64,000 nucleotides of DNA from Streptomyces pactum. GTDB lineage: Bacteria; Actinomycetota; Actinomycetes; Streptomycetales; Streptomycetaceae. The notes beneath the pieces were generated by a model. That model ran no database searches. It was not told where the DNA came from and saw only the letters and a list, made by a program, of their open reading frames with translations. How positions within the stretch are numbered: position 1 is the first letter of the stretch; every line of letters starts with the position of its first letter. The DNA lies in assembly GCF_002005225.1 (NCBI RefSeq), contig NZ_CP019724.1, positions 5,783,501 to 5,847,500 on the forward strand, given 5' to 3'. Of the stretch, positions 13,258 to 44,090 are shown piece after piece. The position numbers were made by a program, and so were the translations under genes.

Positions 13258-14448
13258 GTGACAGCGTCCACCGTGTCCACCGCGTCCGACGTGCCCGCCA
13301 TGCCCGTCATGCCGGCCGACGAGAGAACACACCGCCACGCCCACGTCCCGGACGAGGCACCGCACCGCCACGCCCAGGTCGATCCCCTCGCCGCCCTGCG
13401 CACACCGCAGGACCCGCCCTGGGACGTGTATCTGACCGGCACCGTCTTCCTCGACGTCGTCTTCACGGGGCTCGACTCCGCCCCGGTGCGCGGGACCGAG
13501 TCCTGGGCACGCGGGATGGGGTCGAGCCCGGGCGGCATCGCCAACATGGCGACCGCGCTGGCCCGCCTGGGCCTGCGCACCTCGCTGGCCGCGGCCTTCG
13601 GCGACGACCACTACGGCGACTACTGCTGGGACGCCCTCTCCCAGGGCGAGGGCATCGATCTGAGCCCCTCGCGCACCGTGCCCGGCTGGCACTCGCCGGT
13701 GACGGTCTCGATGGCGTACGAGGGGGAGCGCACGATGGTCTCCCACGGCCACGAGCCGCCGCCCGAGGAACCGACCCCCGACTGCCCGCCCCGCGCCCGT
13801 GCCGCCGTCGCCTCCCTCACGCCCGGCGTCCGCGCCCCCTGGATCGCCCAGGCCGCCGGGCGCGGCACCCGCGTCTTCGCCGACGTCGGCTGGGACGACA
13901 CCGGTGCCTGGGACCTGGCCGGGCTGCCCGACCTCGCGCACTGCGAGGCGTTCCTGCCGAACGCGGAGGAGGCCATGCGCTACACGGGCGCCGGCTGCCC
14001 CCGGGCCGCCGCGCACGCCCTGACCGAGCACGTGCCGCTCGCCGTGGTCACCCTCGGCGCGGACGGCGCGTACGCGGTGGACCGGCGTACCGGGGAGAGC
14101 GCCGAGGTCCCGGCCATCGAGGTCGAGGCCCTGGACCCGACCGGCGCCGGGGACGTCTTCGTCGCCGGGTTCGTCACCGGCACGCTGGCCGGCTGGCCGC
14201 TGGCCGACCGCCTCGCCTTCGCCGGCCTGACCGCCGCCCTCTCCGTCCAGGAGTTCGGCGGCTCCCTGTCGGCGCCCGGCTGGTGCGAGATCGCCACCTG
14301 GTGGCGCAAGGTCCAGTCGGTCCGGGAGCAGGATCCGACGGCCCTGCGGCGCTACGCGTTCCTCGCGGACCTGGTACCGGACGACCTGGTGGCCCCGTGG
14401 CCGCTGCGCCGCGCGGTCCCGACCATCGGCTTCCGCCCCCCGGCCTGA
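13258..14448 (+). CDS. PfkB-family carbohydrate kinase
   Basis: A 396-residue protein. The first ~55 residues are low-complexity and His-rich (THRHAHVPDEAPHRHAQ). The ribokinase fold follows: WDVYLTGTVFLDVVF, SSPGGIANMATALARLGL for sugar binding, and DPTGAGDVFVAGF near residue 300, the PfkB signature 2 with the catalytic aspartate. The phosphorylated substrate (sugar or nucleoside) cannot be told from sequence. The GTG at 13258 is the upstream limit; a later start is possible because the His-rich leader is not part of the fold. It converges on era. Confidence 0.85.
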   Translation: MTASTVSTASDVPAMPVMPADERTHRHAHVPDEAPHRHAQVDPLAALRTPQDPPWDVYLTGTVFLDVVFTGLDSAPVRGTESWARGMGSSPGGIANMATALARLGLRTSLAAAFGDDHYGDYCWDALSQGEGIDLSPSRTVPGWHSPVTVSMAYEGERTMVSHGHEPPPEEPTPDCPPRARAAVASLTPGVRAPWIAQAAGRGTRVFADVGWDDTGAWDLAGLPDLAHCEAFLPNAEEAMRYTGAGCPRAAAHALTEHVPLAVVTLGADGAYAVDRRTGESAEVPAIEVEALDPTGAGDVFVAGFVTGTLAGWPLADRLAFAGLTAALSVQEFGGSLSAPGWCEIATWWRKVQSVREQDPTALRRYAFLADLVPDDLVAPWPLRRAVPTIGFRPPA

Positions 14449-20520: not shown

Positions 20521-22680
<2,160 letters not shown>

Positions 22681-24661: not shown

Positions 24662-25732
24662 CTACAGGGTGCGCACCCCGACCTGCTCCCAGGCCTTGCG
24701 CACCGCCTCCAGCTCCTCGGCGTCGCCGTAGCGCTCCCGGGCGGCCTTCACCGTCAGGGTCGCGAAGTCCGCGAACAGCGCGTCCTGCGCCAGCTCGCCG
24801 CCGGTCAGCACGTCGTACCAGACCAGTCCCGCCCGCTCCCAGGCGTGTCCGCCGAGCGCGGTGGCGACGAGGTGGAAGGCGTGGTTGGGGATGCCGGAGT
24901 TGATGTGGACGCCGCCGTTGTCGCGGCCGGTGCGCACGAAGTCGTCCATCGTCGCGGGCTGCGGGTCCTTGCCGAGGACGTCGTCGTCGTAGGCCGTGCC
25001 CGGCGCGTTCATCGAGCGCAGCGCCACCCCCGTGACGCGCGGGGCGAGCAGCCCGGCGCCGATCAGCCAGTCGGCCTCGGCGGCGGTCTGGCCGAGTGAG
25101 TACTGCTTGATGAGGGCGCCGAAGACATCCGACACCGACTCGTTGAGGGCGCCGGGCTGGCCGTAGTAGGTCAGGTTGGCGGTGTGCTGGGTGACGCCGT
25201 GGGTCAGCTCGTGGCCGATGACGTCGAGGGGGATGGTGAAGTCGAGGAAGACCTCGCCGTCGCCGTCGCCGAAGACCATCTGCTCGCCGTTCCAGAATGC
25301 GTTGTTGTACTCGCGGTCGTAGTGCACGGTCGCGTCCAGCGGCAGTCCGGCGCCGTCGATGGAGTTGCGCCCGTACACCTTCAGGAAGTGCTCGAAGGTG
25401 GCGCCGAGGCCCGCGTAGGCGCGGTTCACGGTGGCGTCCTTGCCGGGTTCCTCGCCCTCGCCGCGCACCTTCCTGCCCGGCAGGTCGGTGCCGTGCCGGG
25501 CGTCGAAGACGGTGCGCTGCGGCTTCTCGGGCTCGGCGCCGGCGCGCGGGGCGACGGCGGGGGCGCCGATGACCGTGGTCAGCGAGCGGTGGGTGCGCTC
25601 GAAGGCGTCGCGCTGGAGGGTCCGGCGGGCGGGTCCGGCGAGCACGGGGTCCTCGTGCTGGGCGAGCTTGTCGAGGACGTGGGGCGGCACGATGGTGCAG
25701 AAGACGGGCTCGAAGCCCCCGTATGTCGTCAT
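24662..25732 (-). CDS. Protealysin-like M4 metallopeptidase
   Basis: A 356-residue thermolysin-family peptidase. VIGHELTHGVTQH contains the zinc ligands His174 and His178 and catalytic Glu175; the third ligand Glu198 is in ALNESVSDVFG; GGVHINSGIPNHAF supplies the late active-site histidine. There is no signal peptide, and the short N-terminal prosequence has CTIVPPHVL, the PPxxL-like motif of protealysin precursors, rather than the long FTP/PepSY propeptide of secreted thermolysins. It is therefore probably made in the cytoplasm as a protealysin-type zymogen. The adjacent emfourin gene supports this. ATG start at 25732. Confidence 0.93.
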   Translation of the reverse strand: MTTYGGFEPVFCTIVPPHVLDKLAQHEDPVLAGPARRTLQRDAFERTHRSLTTVIGAPAVAPRAGAEPEKPQRTVFDARHGTDLPGRKVRGEGEEPGKDATVNRAYAGLGATFEHFLKVYGRNSIDGAGLPLDATVHYDREYNNAFWNGEQMVFGDGDGEVFLDFTIPLDVIGHELTHGVTQHTANLTYYGQPGALNESVSDVFGALIKQYSLGQTAAEADWLIGAGLLAPRVTGVALRSMNAPGTAYDDDVLGKDPQPATMDDFVRTGRDNGGVHINSGIPNHAFHLVATALGGHAWERAGLVWYDVLTGGELAQDALFADFATLTVKAARERYGDAEELEAVRKAWEQVGVRTL

Positions 25733-25756: not shown

Positions 25757-27805
<2,049 letters not shown>

Positions 27806-27989: not shown

Positions 27990-28685
27990 GTGCTGCCTGG
28001 ACCGGGACGAAACGGCCGAGCTGCCCGGCTGCCGCGCATCCTGGGCACACGCACCGCGTGGACACCCGTCGGCGACGGCGAGTTCTTCTGCCCCGGTTGC
28101 GGAGGCGACCGCAACTACCAGCGGCTCACCGGCCGCCGCCGCTTCACCCTGCTCGGCGTGCCCGTGCTGCCGCGCGGCGAGTCGGCGCCGACCGTCGAGT
28201 GCGCGGCCTGCCGCCGCCACTTCGGCACCGACGTCCTCGACCACCCGACCACCACCCGCTTCTCCGCGATGCTCCGCGACGCCGTCCACACCGTCGCCCT
28301 CGCGGTCCTGGCCGCGGGCGGCACCTGCTCCCGTACGGCACTGGAGACGGCGGCCGTCGCGGTGCGCGCGGCCGGCTTCGAGGACTGCACCGAGGACCAG
28401 CTCAACGCGCTGGTCGAAGCACTGGAGGCGGACACCGGCCGGGTCCGCGGCGAGCCCTGCGTACCCGGCCTGGCCATAGAGCTGCACGAGGCGCTGGACC
28501 CGCTGGCCCCGCACCTCGCCGCCGTCGGCCGCGAATCGATCCTGCTCCAGGGCGCCCGCATCGCCCTGGCCGACGGCCCCTACACCCCCGCCGAACGGGA
28601 TGCCCTGGCGACGGTCGGCGCGGCCCTGACCCTCTGCTCCGACGACGTGACCCGCCTGCTGGAGTCGGCCGGCACGCCCTCCTAG
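27990..28685 (+). CDS. TerB-family protein with N-terminal zinc ribbon
   Basis: A 231-residue protein. The N-terminal part has two CxxC pairs (FCPGCGGDRNYQ and ECAACRRHFGTDVL), a zinc ribbon. The C-terminal part is helical and resembles the TerB (tellurite-resistance) fold: RFSAMLRDAVHTVALAVLAAGG and, at the end, RIALADGPYTPAERDALATVG, with the acidic DG-x-x-x-P-E pattern typical of TerB. TerB domains are metal-linked and often membrane-associated; a direct role in tellurite resistance is not implied. I chose the GTG at 27990 because GGAGG (27979-27983) precedes it by six bases. Confidence 0.8.
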   Translation: MLPGPGRNGRAARLPRILGTRTAWTPVGDGEFFCPGCGGDRNYQRLTGRRRFTLLGVPVLPRGESAPTVECAACRRHFGTDVLDHPTTTRFSAMLRDAVHTVALAVLAAGGTCSRTALETAAVAVRAAGFEDCTEDQLNALVEALEADTGRVRGEPCVPGLAIELHEALDPLAPHLAAVGRESILLQGARIALADGPYTPAERDALATVGAALTLCSDDVTRLLESAGTPS

Positions 28686-28749: not shown

Positions 28750-29292
28750 CTACGCGGGGATGTCCAGCCGCATGACCTGGCGGTGCATGCCCGGGCCGAA
28801 GTAGTCCGGGCGCAGGCCGCCGTCGGGTTCCTCGGGCCGGAAACCCAGGGAGCGGTAGAGCAGGATCGCGGCGAGGTTGGCGGGTTCCACGGTGAGGCGG
28901 ACCACCCCTATGCCGTCCCGGCGCAGCCGTGTCAGGACCTCCCTCATCAGCTCCCGGCCCAGCCCGTGCCGGCGCCGGTCCAGGGTGACGCACAGGCCGA
29001 GGATCCAACTGTCCGCGCCGATCGCCCGGGTGGCGGCGAGCACATAGCCGCGCAGCCGGCCCGTGCCGTCGTCGAGCACCAGGAAGTGCTCCTCGTACAT
29101 GTCGAAGAGCTGGCGCAGGAGGAAACCGGGATAGGCGACCTCCTGGAAGACCTCCTCGTCGAGCCGCCGCAGTTCGGGCAGGTCGGTCTCCCGTGCCGTC
29201 CGCAGGACCAGTGGCAGGGCGTCCGGGCGGGGATCGGGCCCGGTGAGCTGCTCGTGGCGGTCCAAGGAGCGTTCCAGCGGTTCGGCGGTCAT
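28750..29292 (-). CDS. GNAT-family N-acetyltransferase
   Basis: A 180-residue acetyltransferase. VLRTARETDLPELRRLDEEVF is the N-terminal strand-helix, LGLCVTLDRRRHGLGRELM provides the acetyl-CoA pyrophosphate loop (RRHGLGRELM), and LYRSLGF near residue 150 is the conserved C-terminal motif. The acceptor substrate is unknown. It is divergent from the methyltransferase-led operon; the 277-bp gap (29293-29569) should carry both promoters, but I see only a weak TAGAGT-type -10 near 29394. Confidence 0.88.
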   Translation of the reverse strand: MTAEPLERSLDRHEQLTGPDPRPDALPLVLRTARETDLPELRRLDEEVFQEVAYPGFLLRQLFDMYEEHFLVLDDGTGRLRGYVLAATRAIGADSWILGLCVTLDRRRHGLGRELMREVLTRLRRDGIGVVRLTVEPANLAAILLYRSLGFRPEEPDGGLRPDYFGPGMHRQVMRLDIPA

Positions 29293-29569: not shown

Positions 29570-30322
29570 ATGGATCGCAACGCCGACGCACCTTGGTCGC
29601 AGTTCGATCCAGAGGTGTACGTCGACAACAATTACCGCACGCCGCTCGAAGCCGACCTTTTGATCGTCCGGTTGATGCGCGACTACTTCGGCCGCTGCTT
29701 CACCGGGGGCGTTCCGGAATCGGTGCGGGGCGTCGACGTCGGGGCCGGTGCCAATCTCTACCCCGCGCTCTCCATGCTGCCGTGGTGCGAAAAGGTGCTC
29801 CTGCTGGAATACGCGCAACCGAACGTCGAATACCTGGAGAAGCAGGTCTCCCCGGGCGGGTACGACACCGCCTGGGACGCTTTCTGGGAAGTGCTGCGCG
29901 AGTCGCCCGCGTACCGCGCCGTCGAACCGAAGAACCTGGTCAGCGAGATCGTCCGGGTGGAGCGCGGCAACCTGTTCGACCTGGAGCACGGGCACCGGCG
30001 CTGGGGCGTCGGGACCATGTTCTTCGTCGCCGACTCGATGTCCGAGTGCCCCGACGAGTTCCACCGGGGAGTGCGGTGCTTCATGAACGCGCTCAGCGCG
30101 GGCGCGCCGTTCGCCGCCGCCTTCATGAAGGAGTCGGTCGGCTACCGCGTCGGCGAACACGACTACCCGGCCTACCGGGTGAACGAGGACCGGGTCAGGG
30201 AGAGCCTGGAACCGTTCACCGGAGAGCTGGAAATCCACGATCTGCACCACATGGTGCGGCCGGGACACGAGGGAATGATCCTCGCCCTGGGGCGGCGCAA
30301 TTCGGAGGTTGCCGTCCCGTAG
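29570..30322 (+). CDS. SAM-dependent methyltransferase, SCO2525-like
   Basis: A 250-residue class I methyltransferase and the first gene of the unusual operon. GVDVGAGANLYPALSML is motif I (SAM binding), VLLLEYAQPNVEYLEKQV supplies the acidic ribose contact, and TMFFVADSMSE is the motif II region. Order and spacing resemble the NNMT/PNMT/TEMT small-amine methyltransferases. I recall Streptomyces homologues being catalogued as the SCO2525 family; the substrate is unknown. The ATG at 29570 is preceded by AGGG at 29561-29564; an in-frame GTG at 29564 and another ATG at 29549 are alternatives. It is separated from the next gene by 54 bp. Confidence 0.85.
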   Translation: MDRNADAPWSQFDPEVYVDNNYRTPLEADLLIVRLMRDYFGRCFTGGVPESVRGVDVGAGANLYPALSMLPWCEKVLLLEYAQPNVEYLEKQVSPGGYDTAWDAFWEVLRESPAYRAVEPKNLVSEIVRVERGNLFDLEHGHRRWGVGTMFFVADSMSECPDEFHRGVRCFMNALSAGAPFAAAFMKESVGYRVGEHDYPAYRVNEDRVRESLEPFTGELEIHDLHHMVRPGHEGMILALGRRNSEVAVP

Positions 30323-30376
30323 GAACGGGGACCATGCTGAACACAGGGCAACGAGATCTGTACGAGGGGTGCGGGG

Positions 30377-32221
30377 ATGCAGATCAAGCCACGCCAGCAC
30401 ATGCTGGAGATCTGGCAGGCCATGGCCCGTCATTCGTTCGACGACGGGAAACTCCTGTGGGGTGACGCCGACGGGCTGAGCAGCGTCGCGGACGCCGAAC
30501 GCCTGCTCTGCCTGCTCTATCCGGCCACCGAGGTCCCCGCCTTCCGCCTCGACCAGCCGGACACCACCGAACGCGACGTCCTGCGCGCGCTGGACCGGGT
30601 CGGCAGCCGGCTGGAGATCCCGCCCAACCTGATCAGCGCGCTGACCCAGTTCATGCGCACCCACACCGGGACGGACGACAGCCCCACCTTCGCCGGCGGA
30701 CACTACTTCCGGCCCGCCGAACCCGGCGGTGAGATCACGCACGAGCAGAGCCAGTTGGGCGTGGTCGACTCCTACTCCATGTCCGTCACGCTCTGCCTCG
30801 CCACCCTCGGATTCCTCAAGGTCTACGAGGGCACCACGACCCGCCCCGAGGTGCGCAGGGCGATCACCGAGCTGAGACAGGCCACGAACGCCCGGCTGAC
30901 CGCCGCCATGGTCAGCCTGCTGCGCTCCTTCACCGTCAACGTCTTCGACGCCGAGTCCGAACAGGGCAGGCGGCTGATCCAGGTCGTGGGACAGGGCAGA
31001 CAGTCCGACCGGGCCGTCCTGCAGCAGTTCTCCCGCAGGTTACGCCCCCTGCGCGCCACCATCATCGAGAGCCTCAGCCGCGGCATCGAGGTCGACGAGG
31101 GCATCCGCGACGAGAGCCAGCTCTTCGAGTGCGGGTGGGCCTGGGGCGTCGTGCAGGACGCCCCGGAGATCACCGACCTCGGCGTCCCGGTCCCCGGCCA
31201 GCCCGCCGGCATCGCCGACCGGCTGCCCTACGTGTACTTCACCGTCGTCGCCCTCGACGGCATCCAGGACCTGTTCTCCGACCGCACCCTCACCCTCGGC
31301 CTGCTCGACGCCGACCAGCAGAAACTCGCCGAGGCACTGCGCCTGCGCTGGGAACTCAGCCAGCAGTACTGGTCCGCGATCGCCCGCTTCGGCACCGAAC
31401 GCTGGCCCCTGGAGGACCTGCCCTGGCAGACCACCGGCCTGCGCCTGGAGTCCGAGTACTTCTCCCTGACCGTCGCGGCCATCGTCGTCCACGACCTGAT
31501 CCGCCGGAAGGCGACCGACGACGACCTCACCCGCACCGTCGCGGTCATGGAGCGCCTCGCCGACCGCGCCCGGATCACCAGCCGCATGACCAGGGGGGAC
31601 CCCACCATCCGGCTGCACAACCCGGGCGTCACCATGCCGCTCGCTGGGTCCGAGCGCACCGGCGGGCAACTGCTGTGGCGCATGCCCGACTTCTCGGCGC
31701 AGCTCCTCAAGCGGAGCATCCAACTCGCCGAACTCTCCCGGAACATCGGCGCGCAGGACCGGTTGCTGCGTCTGTCCGAGCAGACCTTCGAGCACCTGTG
31801 GTCACGGCGCATCGACGACGAAGACGGCCCCGGACTGTGGGACAACGTCCGGGCCGTCTTCCCCGAGGCACACGACGTCGGCTCGCGCATGTCCTGGAGC
31901 ATCACCGAGCGCGTCACCGAATGCCTCGTCGCCGCCCGCAACCTGTACGAGCAGCAGCCCATCCGCAGCCCCGAACTCGCCGAACTGGCCCGCGAACTGC
32001 TCAGCGAGGCCACCCACCTGTTCGGCAGGGAGCAACTCGAGGCCTCCGCGGCCCCCGACGGCAGCAGAGCCCGGGCCATGCGGAGCATCGAGAGCCGCCT
32101 CGACCACGCCCGCGGCCTCGTCGACGACCGGCCCGCCACCGCCTTCGCCCTGGCCCTGCCCGTCCTCCGGGAACTCGACACCCTGGCCCAGGCCAGGGGC
32201 GCCGCCGCCCAGGAGGTGTGA
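30377..32221 (+). CDS. Uncharacterised 614-aa protein, SCO2524-like
   Basis: A large, mostly helical soluble protein beginning MQIKPRQHMLEIWQAMARHS. Visible stretches include GHYFRPAEPGGEITHEQSQL, DSYSMSVTLCLATLGFLKVYE, LRLRWELSQQYWSAIARFGTE and a C-terminal helical region rich in Glu/Arg/Leu. No signal peptide, no membrane segment, no nucleotide-binding motif. I recall homologues as the SCO2524 family, without a known function. Its stop overlaps the ParA-like gene, and it lies within five genes that are co-directional with almost no gaps, which argues that the products work together. Confidence 0.85.
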   Translation: MQIKPRQHMLEIWQAMARHSFDDGKLLWGDADGLSSVADAERLLCLLYPATEVPAFRLDQPDTTERDVLRALDRVGSRLEIPPNLISALTQFMRTHTGTDDSPTFAGGHYFRPAEPGGEITHEQSQLGVVDSYSMSVTLCLATLGFLKVYEGTTTRPEVRRAITELRQATNARLTAAMVSLLRSFTVNVFDAESEQGRRLIQVVGQGRQSDRAVLQQFSRRLRPLRATIIESLSRGIEVDEGIRDESQLFECGWAWGVVQDAPEITDLGVPVPGQPAGIADRLPYVYFTVVALDGIQDLFSDRTLTLGLLDADQQKLAEALRLRWELSQQYWSAIARFGTERWPLEDLPWQTTGLRLESEYFSLTVAAIVVHDLIRRKATDDDLTRTVAVMERLADRARITSRMTRGDPTIRLHNPGVTMPLAGSERTGGQLLWRMPDFSAQLLKRSIQLAELSRNIGAQDRLLRLSEQTFEHLWSRRIDDEDGPGLWDNVRAVFPEAHDVGSRMSWSITERVTECLVAARNLYEQQPIRSPELAELARELLSEATHLFGREQLEASAAPDGSRARAMRSIESRLDHARGLVDDRPATAFALALPVLRELDTLAQARGAAAQEV

Positions 32222-32223
32222 GT

Positions 32224-33129
32224 GTGCTCGTCTTCGCCGCCTCCGACAAAGGGGGCACGGGGCGCTCGGTGACCAGCGCCAACCTGGCCTACCAGCGCGC
32301 CCTCACCGGCGACCACGTGGCCTACGTGGACTTCGACTTCGGCTCGCCCACCGCCGCCGCCGTCTTCGACGTGCCCGGCGCGATGCGCGGCACCGAGGAA
32401 CGCGGCCTCCACTCCTACCTGGAGGGCGAGGCCGCCGAGCCCGCCAGGATCGACGTCTGGCGGCAGACCGAGCACCCCCTGCTGCGCGCCCGCCCCAACC
32501 AGTCCGGCCGCCTCGTCCTGTTCCCCGGCGACGCCGGCGGCGGCGAGTTCGCCACCGGCGAGGAGTCCCTGGAGCGCTGCATCGACCTGCTGCTGCGGCT
32601 CAACGGCGAGTTCGACGTCACCGTCGTCGACCTCAGCGCCGGCCGCAGCTACGCCGTCGACATGGTCCTCGCCGCCACCGCCCACCCCCGGATGCGCAAC
32701 GTCCCCTTCCGCTGGCTCGTCTTCCACCGCTGGACCCGGCAGCACGTCATCGCCGCCTCCGGACTCGTCCACGCCGGCCACGGCATCATCGGCGGCGGCG
32801 TCGAACGCGGGCACGACGAGGAGAGCCTGCGGGCCGCGATCCGCTTCGTGCGGGCCGCCGTCCCCGACCCCGACTCGCCGCTGTGGTCCCAGGGGTCGCC
32901 CGCCCAGGCCGCCTGGATGCAGGCCTGCGACGAGGCGCTGCGCCGCCTCGCCGCCGAGCACCGCATCGGCGACAGCGTCGTACCGCTGGAGCCCATACTC
33001 CAGTGGCGCGAGCAGCTCATCACCGAAGAGGACGTGCTCTCCACCCAGATCGCCAACAAGGAGACCCTGGAAGCGCTGGAGGAGATCGCCCGGCGCCTGA
33101 CGGACGACTCGCACTGGGGGCGGCCATGA
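32224..33129 (+). CDS. ParA/MinD-like protein with variant P-loop, SCO2523-like
   Basis: A 301-residue protein in the SIMIBI (ParA/MinD) class. The P-loop SDKGGTGRSVTSAN (residues 7-20) keeps the signature Lys9 but has Arg14 where the Walker A lysine should be. FDVTVVDLSAGRSYAVD is the Walker B region, and VAYVDFDFGSPTAA is the A' motif. Arg in place of Lys should weaken ATP hydrolysis, so it may be a switch rather than a turnover enzyme. No ParB-like gene is adjacent. Two GTG starts compete: 32218 overlaps the previous TGA, but AGGAGG at 32211-32216 is spaced correctly only for 32224, which I use. Confidence 0.88.
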   Translation: MLVFAASDKGGTGRSVTSANLAYQRALTGDHVAYVDFDFGSPTAAAVFDVPGAMRGTEERGLHSYLEGEAAEPARIDVWRQTEHPLLRARPNQSGRLVLFPGDAGGGEFATGEESLERCIDLLLRLNGEFDVTVVDLSAGRSYAVDMVLAATAHPRMRNVPFRWLVFHRWTRQHVIAASGLVHAGHGIIGGGVERGHDEESLRAAIRFVRAAVPDPDSPLWSQGSPAQAAWMQACDEALRRLAAEHRIGDSVVPLEPILQWREQLITEEDVLSTQIANKETLEALEEIARRLTDDSHWGRP

Positions 33130-34091
33130 CGGACGCGGTGTTCCGGGAGACCGCCGCCGAGCCACGCACCCAGTCGGTGCCGCTGGCCCACCTCTCCCTG
33201 GAGCTGGGCCACCTCTACATGGAGGACTTCGAGGCCGGCCCCGAACGCCTGCGCCGGCACTTCACCGAAGTACGCCCCTGGGTGGACGCCGCCCGCACCG
33301 CCGCCACCGCCCGGACCGGCGGCAAACGCGCCCGGATCAGCACCTGCTTCCTCATCGACGACTACTTCACCCGCTTCGCCACCCCCGCCGAGGTCGTCCC
33401 CATGCTGCTCGCCCAGGCCGAGCGGGCCGGGCTGGACATCGACTACCTGGCCCGCGAGTCCGGCTGCGCGGTGACCGGCAAGGTGCCCGTCGCCGAGGCG
33501 GTGGCCGGCCGCATCGTCGAGTCGCCGCCGCCCGGCAGCTACGGCCTGCGCCCGCCCGCCGCGCAGACCGGCTGGCTGGCCAACGGCGAGCGCAGCCCCG
33601 TGGCCCGCGCCCCGCAGGCGATGAAGCGCGCCGCCGCCTGGCAGCCGCCCCGGGAGACCGCCGCCCGCCGGCACTCCGTCTTCCTCGACGTCGAACTGTG
33701 GAGCGACGACGCCGACGGGCACCGCACCTGGTCCTGCCCCTTCCTCGCCGCCGTGTGGCAGCTCGCCCGCCTCGGGCTCCTGCGCAACGGCGGCGAGGCC
33801 GTCCTCGTCCCCCAGCCGCACACCGCCACCGGCTTCCCCGACGACTGGGACGAACTGCCCGCCCTGCTGCGGCTCAACGACCGCGCGGACCCCTTCGCCG
33901 CCTACCGGACCTGCTCGGTCCTGCCCACCCGGTTCCTCCCCGTCGAGCACGCCGTCCGCGTGATCCTCGACCAGATCGAGGTGGACCCGGGAGCACTGGC
34001 CCAGGTCACCGAACGCTCCGGCCGCGAACGCACGCCCGTCCCCGACTCGGTCGCCGACCGCGTCTCCTACGTCTACTACCCGGGGCTCTGA
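33126..34091 (+). CDS. Uncharacterised 321-aa protein, SCO2522-like
   Basis: A soluble protein starting MTDAVFRETAAEPRTQSVPL. Conserved-looking motifs are LSLELGHLYMEDFEAG, ARISTCFLIDDYFTRFATP and a C-terminal AYRTCSVLPTRFLPVEHAVR. The aspartates in CFLIDDYF and the tyrosines in VSYVYYPGL could form an active site, but I recognise no enzyme family. The ATG overlaps the preceding stop (ATGA), so it is translationally coupled to the ParA-like gene. Known to me only as the SCO2522 family of unknown function. Confidence 0.83.
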   Translation: MTDAVFRETAAEPRTQSVPLAHLSLELGHLYMEDFEAGPERLRRHFTEVRPWVDAARTAATARTGGKRARISTCFLIDDYFTRFATPAEVVPMLLAQAERAGLDIDYLARESGCAVTGKVPVAEAVAGRIVESPPPGSYGLRPPAAQTGWLANGERSPVARAPQAMKRAAAWQPPRETAARRHSVFLDVELWSDDADGHRTWSCPFLAAVWQLARLGLLRNGGEAVLVPQPHTATGFPDDWDELPALLRLNDRADPFAAYRTCSVLPTRFLPVEHAVRVILDQIEVDPGALAQVTERSGRERTPVPDSVADRVSYVYYPGL

Positions 34092-34092
34092 C

Positions 34093-35073
34093 GTGGCGCC
34101 GCGGGAGAGCACACCGCGCGCCGTACTCGCCTGCGGCGAGGTCCGCACCTGCCTGCTGCCCGCCCGGCAGGCCCTCGACAGCCGGTCCGCCGCCCAGCTC
34201 CTGGCCCTGCGCGCCGACGAACGCGTCCTGCTCTCCGAACGCCCGGGCCTCTACGCGCGTTCCCCCGACACCCTCACCGGCGTCGACTGCCCGCTGCCCA
34301 GTGCCAACGGCGCCCGGATCCGCGCGGTCGGCACCGTCACCGCGCACGCCGCGCTCACCGAGGGGCGCGTCCTGCAGACCTCCGCCCACTTCCGCCTCCC
34401 CGCCACCGGCCCCGACCAGCGGCGGCCGTGGGGCGAGTACCTGGTACGCCCCGGTGTGGTCGAACCGCTCGGCAGGCCGAGCCACGAGGCGGTCGCGCGG
34501 GGCGTGCTCGGCGGCCCGCGCCACGGCGACCTCGACGTCGGGCTGATCGCCGACGGGCTGCTCACCCGGCTGCTGCGCCACGCCCTGCTCGACCAGCGCC
34601 CGCCCTTCCGGTCCCGCCCCACCCGGCTGCGCTGGGTCGCCCTGCCCGCGGACCCGGGCGCCGGACCGTCCATCGAACGGTTCACCCTCGCCGAGGAGGA
34701 ACTGCGCACCGTGCGCCTGCGGGTGCCCGAGCAGGTCACCGGCGCCGGTCTCGCCGCGCTCTGCGACGACCTCGCCCTGCACGACTGGCTGCTCACCACC
34801 GTCGTCCGCATGCTCGACGGCCTCCGCCTGGGCGCGGGAGCCGCCGAGGACGCCACCGCCGTCGTCAAAGCGCTGCGTCCGGCCGTCGACCACCTGCTGC
34901 ACCTGTGGATGCCCCGCGCCAGGGTGGCCGGGGAACTGGCCCCGCTGTGGGACCCGCTGGAGGAACGGCCCGGCTTCACCCGGCAGTGGCAGGCCCTGGT
35001 GCAGCGCATCCGCGACCAGCTCACGCTGCACGCCATTCCCGCGCCCCACCGGGAGGTGGAAGCGGTTCCCTGA
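34093..35073 (+). CDS. Uncharacterised 326-aa protein, SCO2521-like
   Basis: Starts at a GTG one base after the previous stop. The N-terminal half is beta-rich (VLACGEVRTCLLPARQALDS, then LRADERVLLSERPGLYARS) and the C-terminal half helical (LCDDLALHDWLLTTVVRML, RQWQALVQRIRDQLTLHA). No membrane segment or recognised catalytic motif. Its place as the fifth gene in an uninterrupted run argues for a shared complex with the ParA-like ATPase and the 614-aa protein. Recalled only as the SCO2521 family, function unknown. Confidence 0.82.
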   Translation: MAPRESTPRAVLACGEVRTCLLPARQALDSRSAAQLLALRADERVLLSERPGLYARSPDTLTGVDCPLPSANGARIRAVGTVTAHAALTEGRVLQTSAHFRLPATGPDQRRPWGEYLVRPGVVEPLGRPSHEAVARGVLGGPRHGDLDVGLIADGLLTRLLRHALLDQRPPFRSRPTRLRWVALPADPGAGPSIERFTLAEEELRTVRLRVPEQVTGAGLAALCDDLALHDWLLTTVVRMLDGLRLGAGAAEDATAVVKALRPAVDHLLHLWMPRARVAGELAPLWDPLEERPGFTRQWQALVQRIRDQLTLHAIPAPHREVEAVP

Positions 35074-35146: not shown

Positions 35147-36262
35147 ATGAGCACGGCACAGTCACCCCAGCCCGACGACACGGCCCGCACGACGGGCCCG
35201 GCCGACCTGAGGGGCGAGTCCCCATGGGCACGCATGCTGCTGGTCGCCCTCGTCGTGGGCGGCCTCTTCTGGAGCGTCACCGCACTGCTGAGCCCACAGG
35301 ACGGCACGCTGCGGCAGTTCGCGGCCGCCGTGCTCTGCGCCGGCGCCGCGGTGCTGGTCCAGTACCTCCTCGGCCTGGCCCCGCGCCCGGGGCACCCGCC
35401 TCTGGAAGAGCACACCCGCCGGGTGGAGAGCGCGCTGGCCGAGAACACCGCCGCCGTACGAGAAGGACTGAACCGGTACGACGACGAGCTGAAAACCGGC
35501 CTGACCCGGCACACCGAGGACGTGAAGCAGCTCGTCGAGACCCACGTCACCCAGGTGGACCACCGGTCCTCCGAGGCCCACCCGCAGCTCGACCGGGTCC
35601 GCGTCGACAGCGTGCCCGAGCTGGCCAAGGGCTTCGCCGACGTACTGCTGCCGGAACCCTCGATCCTGCACACCTTCGTCCACCTGGAGATGGCCCGGGT
35701 GGTCGGCCACATGGCGGACCTCACCAACCAGAGCGCCGAGTGCCCCGGCGAGAACCACGACTGGATGCTCACCCTCACCCGTGCCGCCGAACACTCCATC
35801 TGCGCCACCAGCACCTCCGTCGACCGGGAGTTCTGGAACAGCGAGCCCGCCGGACGCTACCTCGACGCCCAGCAGGCGGCGATCGACGAACAGGGCGTGT
35901 CGGTACGCCGGCTGTTCCTGCTGGAGAGCGCCCGGGAACTCGACGACCGGCTGCTGCGGCTGTGCGAGGAGCAGGAACTGCGCCGCATCGACGTACGCGC
36001 GGCGGTCCTGCCCGAACTGCCCCCGCACCTCCAGCGCGGCACCACCAACGACTTCATCCTCTACGACGAGGAGGTGTCGTTCGAGATCGAGCAGGACCTG
36101 CGCGACGTCAACGTCAGGACCCGGCTCACCGCGCGCCAGGACTACGTAAGGGACCGGCTGAAGCGCTTCAGGGAACTCTGGGACGCGGGCATGGGCCTGC
36201 GCGAACTCGAGGTGCGGGTCGACGCCGAGGAGGACGGCAACTGGATGGTGGACCGGGCCTGA
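35147..36262 (+). CDS. Membrane-anchored coiled-coil protein of unknown function
   Basis: A 371-residue protein. After a short polar N-terminus come two transmembrane segments (about 30-50, MLLVALVVGGLFWSVTALLS, and 57-77, FAAAVLCAGAAVLVQYLLGL). A charged, probably coiled-coil region (about 85-140) follows. The soluble C-terminal domain (about 170-350) contains REFWNSEPAGRYLDAQQAA, VSVRRLFLLESARELDDRLL and NDFILYDEEVSFEIEQDL. That layout is reminiscent of phospholipase D-like folds without catalytic HKD motifs, which is inference. GGGGGGAGAAGCGAG precedes the ATG. It lies 73 bp after the five-gene run and may be its membrane partner. Confidence 0.75.
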   Translation: MSTAQSPQPDDTARTTGPADLRGESPWARMLLVALVVGGLFWSVTALLSPQDGTLRQFAAAVLCAGAAVLVQYLLGLAPRPGHPPLEEHTRRVESALAENTAAVREGLNRYDDELKTGLTRHTEDVKQLVETHVTQVDHRSSEAHPQLDRVRVDSVPELAKGFADVLLPEPSILHTFVHLEMARVVGHMADLTNQSAECPGENHDWMLTLTRAAEHSICATSTSVDREFWNSEPAGRYLDAQQAAIDEQGVSVRRLFLLESARELDDRLLRLCEEQELRRIDVRAAVLPELPPHLQRGTTNDFILYDEEVSFEIEQDLRDVNVRTRLTARQDYVRDRLKRFRELWDAGMGLRELEVRVDAEEDGNWMVDRA

Positions 36263-36407: not shown

Positions 36408-38498
36408 ATGGGGGCAGCAAGGACAAGTGGGGGAGCGGGCGGGGGACGGCGACGGGCCGTGCCCTGGCTGGTGCTCGGACTGTGGATCGCCGTACTGGCG
36501 ATCGCCTCGCCGTTCGCGTCGCGACTGTCGGACGTGCAGCGCGACCGCGCCGTCGACTACCTGCCGGCGAGCGCCGACTCGACCCGGGTGGCCAGGATCC
36601 AGGACCGACTGCCGGGCGGCGAGGCCACCGAGACGGTCGTCGTCTACCACCGCGACGCCGGACTGACCGCCGCCGACAAGGCCACCGCCGCCGACCAGAT
36701 CGCCGAGATCGCGGGCGCGCACCGGCTCACCGACCGGCCGGCCGGCATCCCGTCCAAGGACGGCACCACCCTCGTGTACCCGGTCGCCAGCACCGAACCC
36801 GGCCAGGACGAGGAGGCCCGCAACGCACTGGTCAACGCCATACGGGACGTCGCCGAGGGCGGCGACGGGCTGAGCGTCGAGGTCGGCGGCGCGGGCGCCC
36901 TCGCCACCGACGCGGCCGAGGTCTACAACTCCCTCGACGGCCCGCTGCTCTACACCACCGCAGCCGTCGTGGCCCTCCTGCTGATCCTCATCTACCGCAG
37001 CCCGTTCCTGTGGCTGGTCCCGCTCGCCGTCGCCGGAATCGCCGACTACCTCTCCATGGGCGTCGCCTACGGCCTCAACCAGGGGTTGGGCACCTCGGTC
37101 TCCGGCCAGAGCACCGGCATCATGACCATCCTCGTCTTCGGCGTCGGCACCGACTACGCGCTGCTGCTGATCTCCCGCTACCGCGAGGAACTGCGCCGCG
37201 TCGAACGGCCGCACGACGCCATGGCCGCCGCCCTGCGCGGCTGCGGCCCCGCCGTGCTCGCCTCCTCCGGCACCGTCGCCGCCGGACTGCTCTGCCTGCT
37301 CGCCGCCGACCTCAACTCCAGCCGGGGCATGGGACCGCTCGGCACCGTCGGCGTGCTGTGCGCGCTGGCCGCCATGCTGACCCTGCTGCCGGCACTCCTG
37401 GTCCTGCTCGGCCGCCGCGTCTTCTGGCCCCTCGTACCCCGTCACGGCAGCACGCCCAAGACCCGCGGGTCGCTGTTCACCGCGATGGGCGGCTCCGCCG
37501 AACGCCGGCCGCGTGCCGTACTCGCCGGCGGCGCCGTACTCCTCGGCGCACTCGCCCTCGGCTCGTTCAACCTGCCCGGCTCCCTCAAGCAGGAGGACTC
37601 CTTCACCACCAGGCCCGAGGCGATCGCCGCCATGGAGACCCTCGCCGCCGCCTACCCGGAGCGCGGCACCCAGCCCGTCACCGTCATCGCCCCCACCGAC
37701 CGCGCCGACGCCGCCCTCGCCGAGGCCCGCGGGACCCGGGGCGTCAAGAGCGCCGAGCGGGGCCGCAGCGGCGGCGGCTGGACCGAACTGACGGTACTGG
37801 CCTCCGCACCGCCCCAGTCGGCGGCCGAGACCGCCACCATCGACGCCCTGCGCGACACCCTGGACGGCTCCTACGTCGGCGGCCCCAGCGCCCAGCAGAT
37901 CGACCTGGAGGACACCAACGCCCGGGACACCGTCATCGTCGTCCCGCTCGTGCTGCTGTCGGTCCTGCTGATCCTGATCGTCCTCCTGCGGTCCCTGGTC
38001 GCGCCGCTGATCCTGGTCGCCGCCGTCGTCGCCGTGTGGGGCGCCGCCCTCGGCATCGGCGGACTCGTCTTCGGGCCCCTCTTCGGCTTCGAGGGCACCG
38101 ACCCGGGCCTCGGCCTGCTGTCCTTCGTCTTCCTGGTCGCCCTCGGCGTCGACTACGGCATCTTCCTGATGCACCGCATGCGCGAGGAGTCCCTGCACGG
38201 CGCCGAACCCACGCGGGCCGCGCTCACCGCGCTGCGCACCACCGGCGGCGTCATCGCCTCCGCCGGGCTCGTCCTCGCGGCCACCTTCGCGGTGCTCACC
38301 AACATGCCGATGGTGCAACTCGTCGAACTGGGCTTCGTCATCGCGGTCGGCGTCCTCCTCGACACCTTCCTCGTCCGCACCTACCTGGTCACCAGCGCGA
38401 GCGTCGCCCTGCGCCGCCGGGTGTGGTGGCCGGGCCGGCTGTCCCGGGCGCCCGAGGAGCCGGCGCCGGCGGGGGAGCGGGAGCCCGTCGGTGTCTGA
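36408..38498 (+). CDS. MMPL/RND-family transporter
   Basis: A 696-residue membrane protein with the duplicated RND layout: TM1 (about 19-37, PWLVLGLWIAVLAIASPF), a large extracytoplasmic loop, a block of about five TMs, and a second repeat of loop plus TMs. Family motifs GVGTDYALLLISRYREEL (first half) and ALGVDYGIFLMHRMREE (second half) contain the aspartates thought to carry protons. Actinobacterial MMPL proteins export lipids or antibiotics, sometimes under adjacent two-component control, as here. GGAGGGG precedes the ATG by about 11 bases. The histidine kinase gene follows directly. Confidence 0.93.
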   Translation: MGAARTSGGAGGGRRRAVPWLVLGLWIAVLAIASPFASRLSDVQRDRAVDYLPASADSTRVARIQDRLPGGEATETVVVYHRDAGLTAADKATAADQIAEIAGAHRLTDRPAGIPSKDGTTLVYPVASTEPGQDEEARNALVNAIRDVAEGGDGLSVEVGGAGALATDAAEVYNSLDGPLLYTTAAVVALLLILIYRSPFLWLVPLAVAGIADYLSMGVAYGLNQGLGTSVSGQSTGIMTILVFGVGTDYALLLISRYREELRRVERPHDAMAAALRGCGPAVLASSGTVAAGLLCLLAADLNSSRGMGPLGTVGVLCALAAMLTLLPALLVLLGRRVFWPLVPRHGSTPKTRGSLFTAMGGSAERRPRAVLAGGAVLLGALALGSFNLPGSLKQEDSFTTRPEAIAAMETLAAAYPERGTQPVTVIAPTDRADAALAEARGTRGVKSAERGRSGGGWTELTVLASAPPQSAAETATIDALRDTLDGSYVGGPSAQQIDLEDTNARDTVIVVPLVLLSVLLILIVLLRSLVAPLILVAAVVAVWGAALGIGGLVFGPLFGFEGTDPGLGLLSFVFLVALGVDYGIFLMHRMREESLHGAEPTRAALTALRTTGGVIASAGLVLAATFAVLTNMPMVQLVELGFVIAVGVLLDTFLVRTYLVTSASVALRRRVWWPGRLSRAPEEPAPAGEREPVGV

Positions 38499-38565
38499 GG
38501 CACCCGAGGACCGGAGTGCGCCCCTCCTCTCCCGGCGGGGCGCGCCCGTCACGGAGGATGGACGC

Positions 38566-39840
38566 GTGCAGCCAACCACCGAGGCAGCGTCCAGGCCGCC
38601 GCGCGCCGGCGAGCGGATCATGGCCGCCATCAACCGCGACCCGCTCGCCGCCCCGCACCGCGACCGGAACGACACCCTGCTCGCCGCGGCCCTCCTCACC
38701 GCGGCGGCCTGCATCGCGCTGCTCACCGACGAGGGCCGCCGCCCGGACGCGGTGGGCTGGACCCTGCTGGTCGCCGGTCACGCGCCGCTGGCACGGCGCA
38801 GGCAACGCCCCCTGCTGGTGCTCTGCCTGGCGGCAGCCCCGATCGCCGCCTTCCACGCCCTCGACCACAACCACTCGGCGCCCGTGCCCGCGACCATGGT
38901 GGCCCTCTACACGATCGCCACGACCGGCACCGTGCGCCGCACCCTGGTCACCGGCGCCGTCGTCATCGGCCTGGGGCTGACCATGAACGCCCTCACCAAC
39001 CCCGAGGGCATGACCGAGCTGCTCCGGATCACCGGCTGGGTCGTCGCCGTCCTGTTCTGCGGCATCGACGTCCGCTACTACCGCCATTACGTCGCCTCCA
39101 TCGTCGAGCGCGCCGAGCGCGCCGAACGCACGCGTGAGGAGGAGGCCCGGCGCCGCGTCGCCGAGGAGCGCCTGCGCGTCGCCCGGGACCTGCACGACCT
39201 GCTCGCCCACAGCATCACCCTCATCGGCGTGCAGACCTCCGTCGCCGCCCACGTCCTGACCGCCGACCCCGGGCGCCTGGACCGGGCCGCCGTCGCCAAG
39301 GCCCTCGACGACATCGCCGAGACCTGCCGGAACGCGCGCGGCGAACTGCGCACCACGCTGGAGGTCCTCCGGGAGCAGGACGCCCCCGACGCCCGCGGCC
39401 CGCTGCCCGGACTGCACGGCCTGGCCGACCTGGCCGAGGCCGCACGGCTCGCCGGAGCGCGGGTCGACCTGTCGGTACGCGCCGACGGCGTCCCGCCCGC
39501 GGTCGGCGCCGCCGCCTACCGCATCGTGCAGGAGGCGCTGACCAACGCCGTACGGCACGCGGGCCCAAAGCCGTCCGTCCGCGTCGAGGTCCACGCCGAG
39601 CGGGGCGCCCTGCGCCTGGCCGTGACCGACGACGGCACCGGGCCCGACCCCCACGGAACCCCCGGTTTCGGCCTGGTCGGCATGCGCGAACGCGCCCGCA
39701 GCGTGGGCGGCACACTCGACGCCGGGCCGCGGGACGGGGGCGCCGGCGGCTTCGAGGTGACGGCGGTCCTGCCGACGCCCGCGGCGCCTTCGGCACCCGC
39801 CGCGCCCCTGACCACCGTGACCCCGGAGAGAGACGGATGA
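38566..39840 (+). CDS. NarL-type sensor histidine kinase
   Basis: A 424-residue kinase. Four to five predicted TMs are in the N-terminal half (LLAAALLTAAACIALL, AATMVALYTIATTG, VVAVLFCGIDV). HisKA_3 has ARDLHDLLAHSITLIGVQT, with the phosphoacceptor His in DLHDLLAH, and the HATPase C-terminal domain has ALTNAVRHAGPKPSV (N box) and DDGTGPD/GFGLVGMRERA. The GTG at 38566 is preceded by GGAGG (38553-38557) at eight bases, so I prefer it over an upstream GTG at 38491 that overlaps the transporter. The stop overlaps the response regulator start (ATGA). Confidence 0.92.
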   Translation: MQPTTEAASRPPRAGERIMAAINRDPLAAPHRDRNDTLLAAALLTAAACIALLTDEGRRPDAVGWTLLVAGHAPLARRRQRPLLVLCLAAAPIAAFHALDHNHSAPVPATMVALYTIATTGTVRRTLVTGAVVIGLGLTMNALTNPEGMTELLRITGWVVAVLFCGIDVRYYRHYVASIVERAERAERTREEEARRRVAEERLRVARDLHDLLAHSITLIGVQTSVAAHVLTADPGRLDRAAVAKALDDIAETCRNARGELRTTLEVLREQDAPDARGPLPGLHGLADLAEAARLAGARVDLSVRADGVPPAVGAAAYRIVQEALTNAVRHAGPKPSVRVEVHAERGALRLAVTDDGTGPDPHGTPGFGLVGMRERARSVGGTLDAGPRDGGAGGFEVTAVLPTPAAPSAPAAPLTTVTPERDG

Positions 39841-40505
39841 CCATACGCGTGCTGCTCGCGGACGACCAGAACCTCGTCCGTGCCGCGTTCGCCCTGCTCG
39901 TCGCGTCGGCCCCGGACATGGAGGTCGTCGGCGAGGCGGGCACCGGCCGCCAGGCCGTGGAACTGGCCCGCGCCGAGCGCGCCGACCTCGTCGTCATGGA
40001 CATCCGGATGCCCGACCTGGACGGCATCGAGGCGACCCGGCTCATCGCGGCCGACGAGGACCTCGCGGGCGTGAGGGTGCTGGTCCTCACCACCTACGAC
40101 ACCGACGACAACATCGTGGCGGCCCTCCGCGCGGGCGCCTCCGGTTTCCTGGTCAAGGACACGAAGCCCGCCGAACTCCTCGACGCCATCCGCACCGTGA
40201 CGGCGGGCGACGCGCTCCTGTCGCCAGGCCCGACGGCACGGCTGATCGAGCGCTTCCTGCGCAGCCCCTCGGCGCCCGTGGCGGGCGGTGGCGGCCCCGA
40301 CTGCCTGTCGGACCGCGAGCGCCAGGTGCTCACGCTCGTCGCGCGCGGCCTCAACAACACGGAGATCGCCGACTCCCTGGGACTGAGCCCACTCACCGCG
40401 AAGACCCACGTCAGCCGCATCATGGGCAAGCTGGGCGCACGTGACCGGGCCCAACTGGTCATCGTGGGCTACGAGTCGGGGCTGGTGACGCCGGGAGTCC
40501 GCTAG
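39837..40505 (+). CDS. LuxR-family response regulator
   Basis: A 222-residue NarL-type regulator. The receiver domain has Asp9/Asp10, phosphoacceptor Asp55 in VVMDIRMPDLDG, Thr85 and Lys107 (FLVKDT). The C-terminal LuxR helix-turn-helix has LSDRERQVLTLVARGLNNTEIA and TAKTHVSRIMGKLGARDR. It overlaps the kinase gene by four bases, so they form one unit, with the MMPL transporter as the obvious target. Its TAG stop lies inside the CTAG at 40502-40505, which marks the left edge of the mobile segment; see the insertion entry. Confidence 0.95.
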   Translation: MTIRVLLADDQNLVRAAFALLVASAPDMEVVGEAGTGRQAVELARAERADLVVMDIRMPDLDGIEATRLIAADEDLAGVRVLVLTTYDTDDNIVAALRAGASGFLVKDTKPAELLDAIRTVTAGDALLSPGPTARLIERFLRSPSAPVAGGGGPDCLSDRERQVLTLVARGLNNTEIADSLGLSPLTAKTHVSRIMGKLGARDRAQLVIVGYESGLVTPGVR

Positions 40506-42648: not shown

Positions 42649-44090
42649 GCCCAATGCCGGTGACTTAAGTTCTGTCCTGCCGAGTGATGGTGACGGTGTC
42701 CGGTGCGGGTGGTGTCCAGTTGGAGTGCTCGGCCCGTTTGAGCGGCCAGTTGGACATCTTGCGTTTGATCACTCGGGGGCAGGTGCGGTGGCGGCGTGGG
42801 GGCAGGAGGCGTTCGGCGATCTCAGCCAGGGTGCGGGCCAGTGCCCGGGCGAGTCGGCCGGGGGGAAAACGCCGCCTGGGCCGGGACCTGGCGGCGCACG
42901 ATCCGCAGGGACCGGGTGAAGGACAGGCGGTCAGGGTCCAGACCCTCGCGCAGGGCGCTTTGGTGCATCAACTGCCGGACGGCGTGGTGCACCAAGAGGA
43001 AGCCGTAGATCTCCTGCTCCACACCCCACGGGTATTTCGAGCGCAGGATGAGCTTCGGGCCGCGTTGGTGAGTCTTGATCTCGTCCAGCGTGGTCTCGAT
43101 CTCCCACCGCTGGGCGTAGAGCGCGGCCAGCTCCCGCGCGGGTGCTTCCTCTGGATCGAGCAGGCTGGTCAGCAGGCGGTAGACGGTGGCGTCGCCGGTG
43201 CGGGCGAGGGTGTACTCGATCACCCGGACCACCACCGGGTTGCGGCGGCTCCTGCGGTCCTTTTCGGCATGGACCGTGCTGAGGTAGGAGCCATCGCCGA
43301 GGACCTGGGTGACAGGCAGGACCGCGCTCTTGCGCACGCGCCACAGCAGGTCCGCGCCGCTGTCCCGGGCGGCCTGCCACAACTCGAATCCGTAAAAGCC
43401 CCGGTCGGCGAGCAGGAGCATCCCTTCCTGAAGCTGGGGGAACAGCTGCCGGGAGAGTTTCTGCTCGCTCGCCGACTGCGGACCGATGACGGCCCCGAAC
43501 ACCGCGTGGGTGCCGCATTCCGCCAGCGCGACCAGCCGTGCCTGCGGGAACGCGGCTGCTCCGCGCGTCGAGGCATGGCGGCCGAAGAACTCCTCGTTGG
43601 CCGCCGTGTCCGCCACGTCCAAGGTCGTGCCGTCCACCGCGACCAGACGCCAGTGCCGGTACCAGGCACCCGCCGTCTCGGGCACGGCCACCGGCCGGCA
43701 GACCCGGGCGAACAATGCCCTCAACGGTTCTGTGCCCAGACGCCGGCGTGCCCGCCCGATCGCGGCGGTCGTCGGCACCCGCCACGACCGCCGCCCATCA
43801 CCGAGCCCCTCGCCCAGCAGCCGGGCGACCTCCTCGTATCCCTGCCCGAAGAACAGGCACATCGCGAGAACGAAGTAGACCACCACCCGCGCCGGCAGCA
43901 GACGGCTGCGCTGCTCGGTCCGGCCGCTCTCGGCGATCACCTCATCGACCAGATGAGGCGGAAACGCCTGCGTCAGCACCCCGATCGCGATCCGGTCCGA
44001 CAACCGCTCATCCGCAGGCGCCCTGACCTGCCCCACCCTCGCCACACAGCAGACAACGAGGCACAGCCGTCTAAGTCACCGGCATTGGTC
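42649..44090 (-). mobile_element. IS4-family insertion sequence, 1442 bp, with CTAG target duplication
   Basis: Left end GCCCAATGCCGGTGACTTA (from 42649) and the reverse complement of the right end, GACCAATGCCGGTGACTTA, differ only at the second base, giving 19-bp terminal inverted repeats. CTAG flanks both ends (42645-42648 and 44091-44094). The right CTAG supplies the TAG stop of the neighbouring peptidase gene. The single transposase is frameshifted. Confidence 0.9.
42665..44045 (-). pseudogene. IS4-family transposase, single-base frameshift
   Basis: From the ATG at 44045, 384 or so intact codons encode the Tnp_IS4 N-terminal domain (LSDRIAIGVLTQAFPPHLVD) and the DDE domain: VDGTTLDVAD, LADRGFYGFELW and YAQRWEIETTLDEIK (the YREK signature). 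At the run GGGGGGAAAA (42860-42869 on the plus strand) the frame shifts and ends early at 42822 with a nonsense tail. One base fewer in the G run restores SPGRLARALARTLAEIAERL through a stop at 42665, the expected C-terminus, about 459 residues in all. It is a one-base insertion, a sequencing error, or a programmed slip. Confidence 0.88.

Follow-up and report, generated by a model that had tools for sequence, protein, structure and literature searches.

The module and its genes

We describe a gene module in Streptomyces pactum, contained in a 64,000-nt window of the genome (assembly GCF_002005225.1, contig NZ_CP019724.1, positions 5,783,501-5,847,500) and centred on a run of genes of the SCO2525 to SCO2521 families. 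A sequence-only reading of this window had proposed a five-gene operon at 29570..35073, and all five reading frames were verified at the coordinates and sizes that it gave, in one direction, on the forward strand. In order, they encode an SCO2525-family S-adenosylmethionine-dependent methyltransferase (29570..30322, 250 amino acids), an SCO2524-family protein with no recognised domain (30377..32221, 614 amino acids), an SCO2523-family variant P-loop protein of ParA/MinD-like type (32224..33129, 301 amino acids, GTG start), an SCO2522-family protein with a predicted HUP-type Rossmann fold (33126..34091, 321 amino acids) and an SCO2521-family protein (34093..35073, 326 amino acids, GTG start). 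The family names given in that reading hold, since each protein scores far above the equivalog cut-off of its own NCBIfam model: 311.7 against 240 bits for SCO2525 (NF040568), 933.7 against 300 for SCO2524 (NF040567), 488.1 against 200 for SCO2523 (NF040564), 486.7 against 200 for SCO2522 and 409.2 against 150 for SCO2521. SCO2525 and SCO2524 lie 54 bp apart, and SCO2524 and SCO2523 2 bp; SCO2523 and SCO2522 overlap by 4 bp, and 1 bp separates SCO2522 from SCO2521. Thus the claim that the last four genes are joined by overlaps or a single-base gap stands for two junctions, the third being a gap of 2 bp.

The boundaries first drawn were too narrow. Upstream, on the reverse strand, the module reaches a GNAT N-acetyltransferase gene (28750..29292, 180 amino acids; Pfam PF00583, 53.8 bits), probably the SCO2526 counterpart by gene order and numbering, and downstream it reaches a forward-strand gene for an SCO2520-like membrane protein of 371 amino acids (35147..36262), assigned by hydropathy and synteny.

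An obligate four-gene core

Four of these families occur together or not at all. Among 197 class-level genomes, apparently the identical draw for each family to judge by the listed handles, SCO2524, SCO2523, SCO2522 and SCO2521 each exceed their NCBIfam cut-offs in 21, and the 21 genomes, which we term carriers, are the same for all four. The chance of a second set of 21 genomes equalling the first is 10^-28 when genome relatedness is ignored. Carriers comprise 7 of the 16 sampled Streptomyces, four genomes of family f84, nine of f85 and one of f3. Weak P-loop matches to SCO2523 appear in 28 further genomes of the 197, none of them over the cut-off, and in a phylum-wide sample SCO2523 exceeds the cut-off in 5 of 296 genomes.

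Gene order is largely kept as well. In 81 Streptomyces-type loci (the best 80 of 259, plus the window), the core is present in 79 and the complete six-gene set from SCO2525 to SCO2520 in 75; contig ends interrupt L053, L054, L071 and L093, while L103 and L106 have undergone gene loss and have other genes in front of SCO2522. Across 18 loci fetched from carrier genomes, the core is complete in every one, accompanied by SCO2525 in ten and SCO2520 in 14. The SCO2524-SCO2523 spacing lies between -4 and 14 bp at all measured loci, whereas that of SCO2523-SCO2522 (group medians -4 to 66 bp) and SCO2522-SCO2521 (8 to 164 bp) is more variable; outlying long or negative values trace to L103, L106 and L134, or to automatic start choice (L142). 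The genes therefore form one unit, as first supposed: SCO2524-2523-2522-2521 is an obligate four-gene unit in the sampled genomes, which the GNAT, SCO2525 and SCO2520 genes usually accompany.

Some loci depart from this arrangement. L134 has its SCO2520-like gene (7407-8357) between SCO2523 and SCO2522 rather than after SCO2521. In L103 (S. diastatochromogenes DSM 40608) and L106 (Streptomyces sp. MMG1533), SCO2522 is preceded by two genes, one of them encoding a DAO-family oxidoreductase, which in L103 separate it from an intact SCO2523, and neither GNAT nor SCO2520 was found; in L106, SCO2524 was also not found and SCO2523 is a 127-amino-acid piece. Either a decaying operon or an assembly fault would explain these two loci.

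Accessory genes

The GNAT gene follows the core closely. Homologues at E<=1e-15 occur in 16 of the 197 genomes, and 15 of these are carriers, all 15 with the gene beside the operon (Fisher p 7e-17, relatedness ignored); the sixteenth, G441, is a non-carrier with a 61-bit homologue. This search scored at most 17 candidates per genome, so that a distant relative could escape it. Among the 81 Streptomyces-type loci, the gene is present in 75, of which 72 pass the distance test and three (L062, L083, L087) narrowly miss it; the loci that lack it are L069, L071 and L093 (all three cut), and L103, L106 and L066. It is divergent from the operon in Streptomyces, but of the seven f85 loci having it, five have it on the same strand and two divergent, and in the f3 locus it sits on the opposite side of the operon. 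Because orientation differs among groups in this way, the linkage reflects more than a shared promoter. The protein's only NCBIfam matches are to general GNAT models, and all fall short of the cut-offs.

SCO2525 exceeds its cut-off in 13 of the 197 genomes, all of them carriers, leaving eight carriers without it at that cut-off, and weaker relatives, scoring 120-141 bits where 240 is the cut-off, occur in three Streptomyces that lack the core. All 13 also carry GNAT, and G050 and G402 have GNAT without SCO2525 at that cut-off, so that the optional parts are nested. The protein belongs with the NNMT/PNMT/TEMT methyltransferases, scoring 34 bits against the PF01234 gathering score of 25, but here it is an accessory. 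The methyltransferase is thus outside the module core, and methylation, which the sequence-only reading had raised as a possible modification of a target, is not supported as the core act. A second short SCO2525 match was seen in G451, and at L145 another short stretch resembling SCO2525 lies close to the operon (13901-14092, 71 bits).

The SCO2520-like protein has, by hydropathy, two hydrophobic N-terminal stretches followed by a soluble C-terminal domain, and no family was recognised for it in NCBIfam or Pfam.

A shared site in several Streptomyces

In the window, the module lies between a TerB-domain gene (28158..28685, forward strand; PF05099, 30.1 bits) on its left and, on its right, genes for an MMPL-family transporter (36408..38498, forward strand; PF03176, 342.9 bits), a histidine kinase (38491-39840) and a response regulator (39837-40505), all of which we place outside it. 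LeuA (26084-27805) precedes TerB and is present in all 15 other sampled Streptomyces, and the stretch downstream of LeuA was read in the nine that have no operon. In five of them (L321, L323, L324, L327 and L328), the MMPL-kinase-regulator genes come immediately after TerB, with GNAT and all six other genes missing from between; in the other four (L320, L322, L325 and L326), the MMPL-kinase-regulator genes were also not found in that stretch. In one carrier, G128, the operon lies about 23 kb from LeuA.

Within Streptomyces, the module is hence present or absent as a block. When the 16 genomes are placed on a LeuA tree, the presence label needs three changes, against a shuffled mean of 5.5 (19 of 500 shuffles as low), and carrier and non-carrier are sisters twice. 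The shared site makes repeated loss somewhat likelier than repeated gain.

SCO2523, a variant P-loop protein

SCO2523 shares with the MinD/ParA ATPases an N-terminal P-loop, the signature Lys9, a DFDFGSP motif, the Walker B Asp136 and a CbiA match (27.4 bits, threshold 25.4), but differs by an arginine in place of the Walker A lysine and by a conserved C-terminal half of its own. The arginine, residue 14 of the window protein in the motif SDKGGTGRS, was already singled out in the sequence-only reading, and it proves invariant in all 97 full-length sequences (79 of them from the window or the set of close Streptomyces; the fragment L106 was left out), together with Lys9, Ser15, Asp36, Asp38 and Asp136. 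Since it is found in every sequence, the change is old and retained rather than a mark of decay, and in combination with the kept Lys9, Asp38 and Asp136 it fits a protein that binds nucleotide with little or no turnover.

The same residues bear on a reading in which nucleotide-dependent SCO2523 dimers, by way of SCO2520, bring a complex of SCO2524, SCO2522 and SCO2521 to the membrane as hyphae grow or form septa, with the enzymes acting as side modifiers. The deviant Walker A signature Lys9 and the conserved Asp38 and Asp136 suit such positioning or assembly of the ParA/MinD type, as do the usual presence of a two-transmembrane partner and the morphogenetic role cited for SCO2525. However, oscillating ParA/MinD proteins require hydrolysis, and the lysine is replaced throughout; no ParB, MinC or MinE partner was recognised by NCBIfam or Pfam among ten window proteins, where unrecognised relatives may still lie; SCO2520 is missing from four of the 18 fetched loci; and nine of the 16 sampled Streptomyces do without the core. 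We consider positioning unlikely.

The P-loop change also has parallels elsewhere. SCO2523 scores 39.1 bits on the NCBIfam model NF047398 (KGGVGR), below its cut-off of 90, though it has the KGGxGR motif, and among seven other matches to this model in the genome no second arginine variant was seen in the six whose motif was located. Three large open frames of 634, 835 and 1703 amino acids (L016, L021 and L236) match the SCO2523 profile weakly and share KGGTGR, within YSYKGGTGRT, which is the same lysine-to-arginine change. MinD/ParA-like domains in conflict systems of multicellular actinobacteria are also predicted to be inactive (Kaur et al. 2020, PMC7159879). They thus have a predicted catalytic loss in common with SCO2523; the KGGxGR motif, shared with NF047398, is not named in the passages of that paper on these domains, and SCO2523 by contrast stands alone.

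A conflict or defence system of this type would agree with the predicted inactivity, the shared KGGTGR and the patchy, all-or-none presence of the module. Yet PADLOC gave no convincing match in six proteins, only two weak single ones of 19 (the P-loop) and 11.5 bits; neither SCO2522 nor SCO2524 has a plasmid match and SCO2524 has no phage match; the site between TerB and MMPL is fixed in several Streptomyces; and the core is strongly conserved in sequence, with no variable effector recognised. Nor was a MoxR or vWA gene found among the window and flank proteins scanned with Pfam. Defence is, in our view, an improbable role.

SCO2522 and a proposed mechanism

Pfam has no match above threshold for the window's SCO2524, SCO2522 or SCO2521. 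A weak, partial DUF6829 match occurs in 19 of 42 SCO2524 relatives (best E 1.3e-5), and the SCO2521 model is mixed alpha/beta with a helical C-terminus. The SCO2522 model aligns over about 150-200 residues with the catalytic cores of class I aminoacyl-tRNA synthetases, from which we predict a HUP-type Rossmann fold like those cores. Known offshoots of these synthetases include MshC and the cyclodipeptide synthases (PMC2922099).

The reading we favour, with a probability of roughly one in four for the whole, is as follows. SCO2524, SCO2523, SCO2522 and SCO2521 may form one complex, a step that we hold only weakly, in which SCO2522 would be a HUP-fold enzyme or ligand-binding protein for a substrate, amino-acid-like or nucleotide-linked, that it activates or holds. 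SCO2523 would serve as a ParA-like switch that binds nucleotide but turns over little ATP or none, assembling or gating the complex. Where present, GNAT and SCO2525, the latter a relative of small-molecule amine N-methyltransferases, could further modify the substrate or product, SCO2520 could tether the complex or sense at the membrane, and the outcome would influence colony growth and development.

Several observations weigh against this. Mean predicted local distance difference test (pLDDT) scores are 67 for the SCO2522 model and 49-63 for the other four, and residues 132-188 of SCO2522, which hold its strongly conserved GWLxNG segment, fall below 50. Foldseek found no significant match for the model (best E 0.078), and hhalign of SCO2522 against ArgRS and Tyr/TrpRS alignments did no better than reversed decoys, at a low profile diversity (Neff 2.4) and with rough reference frames; the likeness to the synthetases and their offshoots is thus one of modelled core, with no support from sequence profiles. 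Their catalytic motifs are missing too: KMSKS, strict or relaxed, occurs in none of 99 SCO2522 sequences, and HIGH is not at its expected place, H.[GA]H being found in three of the 99 at differing positions. A relaxed HIGH pattern is met in 98 of the 99, but in the window protein it is an ELGH in strand 1 of the model rather than at a helix start. The SCO2521 model has no fold match. Finally, GNAT and SCO2525 are both missing from six of the 21 carriers, so that neither modifying enzyme is essential to the core act.

A more specific form of the proposal, which we regard as distinctly improbable, is a new actinobacterial pathway in which SCO2522 is synthetase-derived without HIGH or KMSKS and sits in a complex held by a non-hydrolysing ParA-like protein, the activated amino-acid-like substrate being N-acetylated by GNAT and N-methylated by SCO2525 to give a signal or protein tag for mycelial development. 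If true, a class I synthetase offshoot acting together with such a ParA-like protein would be an unfamiliar combination.

Link to development and prior knowledge

Two papers, both citing Gehring et al. 2004, mention SCO2525: one (PMC11472566) calls it a putative methyltransferase required for normal growth, and the other (PMC6344877) gives it a morphogenetic role. Passages of the first, a 2024 study, also report sco2521-sco2526, from transcript data, as an operon that HupS seems to control. The development link rests on papers citing the SCO2525 mutant, and the mutation, if polar, could also affect downstream genes. The sequence-only reading gave no function for these families; this now needs amending for SCO2525 and still holds for the operon as a whole, on whose function no paper was found in the searches made.

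HupS control and the developmental phenotype in these cited passages, together with a membrane anchor beside cytosolic partners, might also reflect a regulatory relay, in which SCO2520 would detect a signal and the core complex would hold back a developmental regulator or set it free, without making any small molecule. Against this, some fetched loci lack SCO2520, the supposed sensor, and NCBIfam and Pfam gave no DNA-binding or signalling domain above threshold in the six proteins. Such a relay seems to us about as improbable as defence.

The five window proteins are clear members of NF040564 to NF040568 (SCO2521-SCO2525), whose consecutive accessions suggest that the families were defined together; their descriptions name families only, with no process, and none covers SCO2520. 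As NCBI has named the families and the operon is in transcript data, its existence is not new. What the analysis adds is a defined module, with its core, accessories and site, together with a lead on fold. Five names of the type 'SCO25xx family protein' become one module with a 2524-2523-2522-2521 core and nested optional parts. The module matches no system compared, and the nearest known kind is gene clusters around variant MinD/ParA proteins, among which we do not claim membership for it. Closely related strains with and without the module make its role in Streptomyces growth directly testable.

Neighbouring features

Passages of one paper group SCO2519 and the EcrA1/A2 system of S. coelicolor with undecylprodigiosin genes (PMC11538686), and passages of another include an insertion in SCO2519 in a list of mutants whose actinorhodin is raised (PMC6585502); from gene order, we infer that the window genes at 36408-40505 are the counterparts of SCO2519 and EcrA1/A2. 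Beyond LeuA, about 3 kb from GNAT, an M4 metallopeptidase gene (24662-25732) shows no sign of membership in the module. Further out, on the reverse strand, a PhoH-like protein (20521-22602) with an internal LAGLIDADG_3 domain suggests an intein in PhoH, and a DDE transposase-domain gene (42822-43637, reverse strand) follows the MMPL-kinase-regulator genes at a distance of about 2.3 kb.

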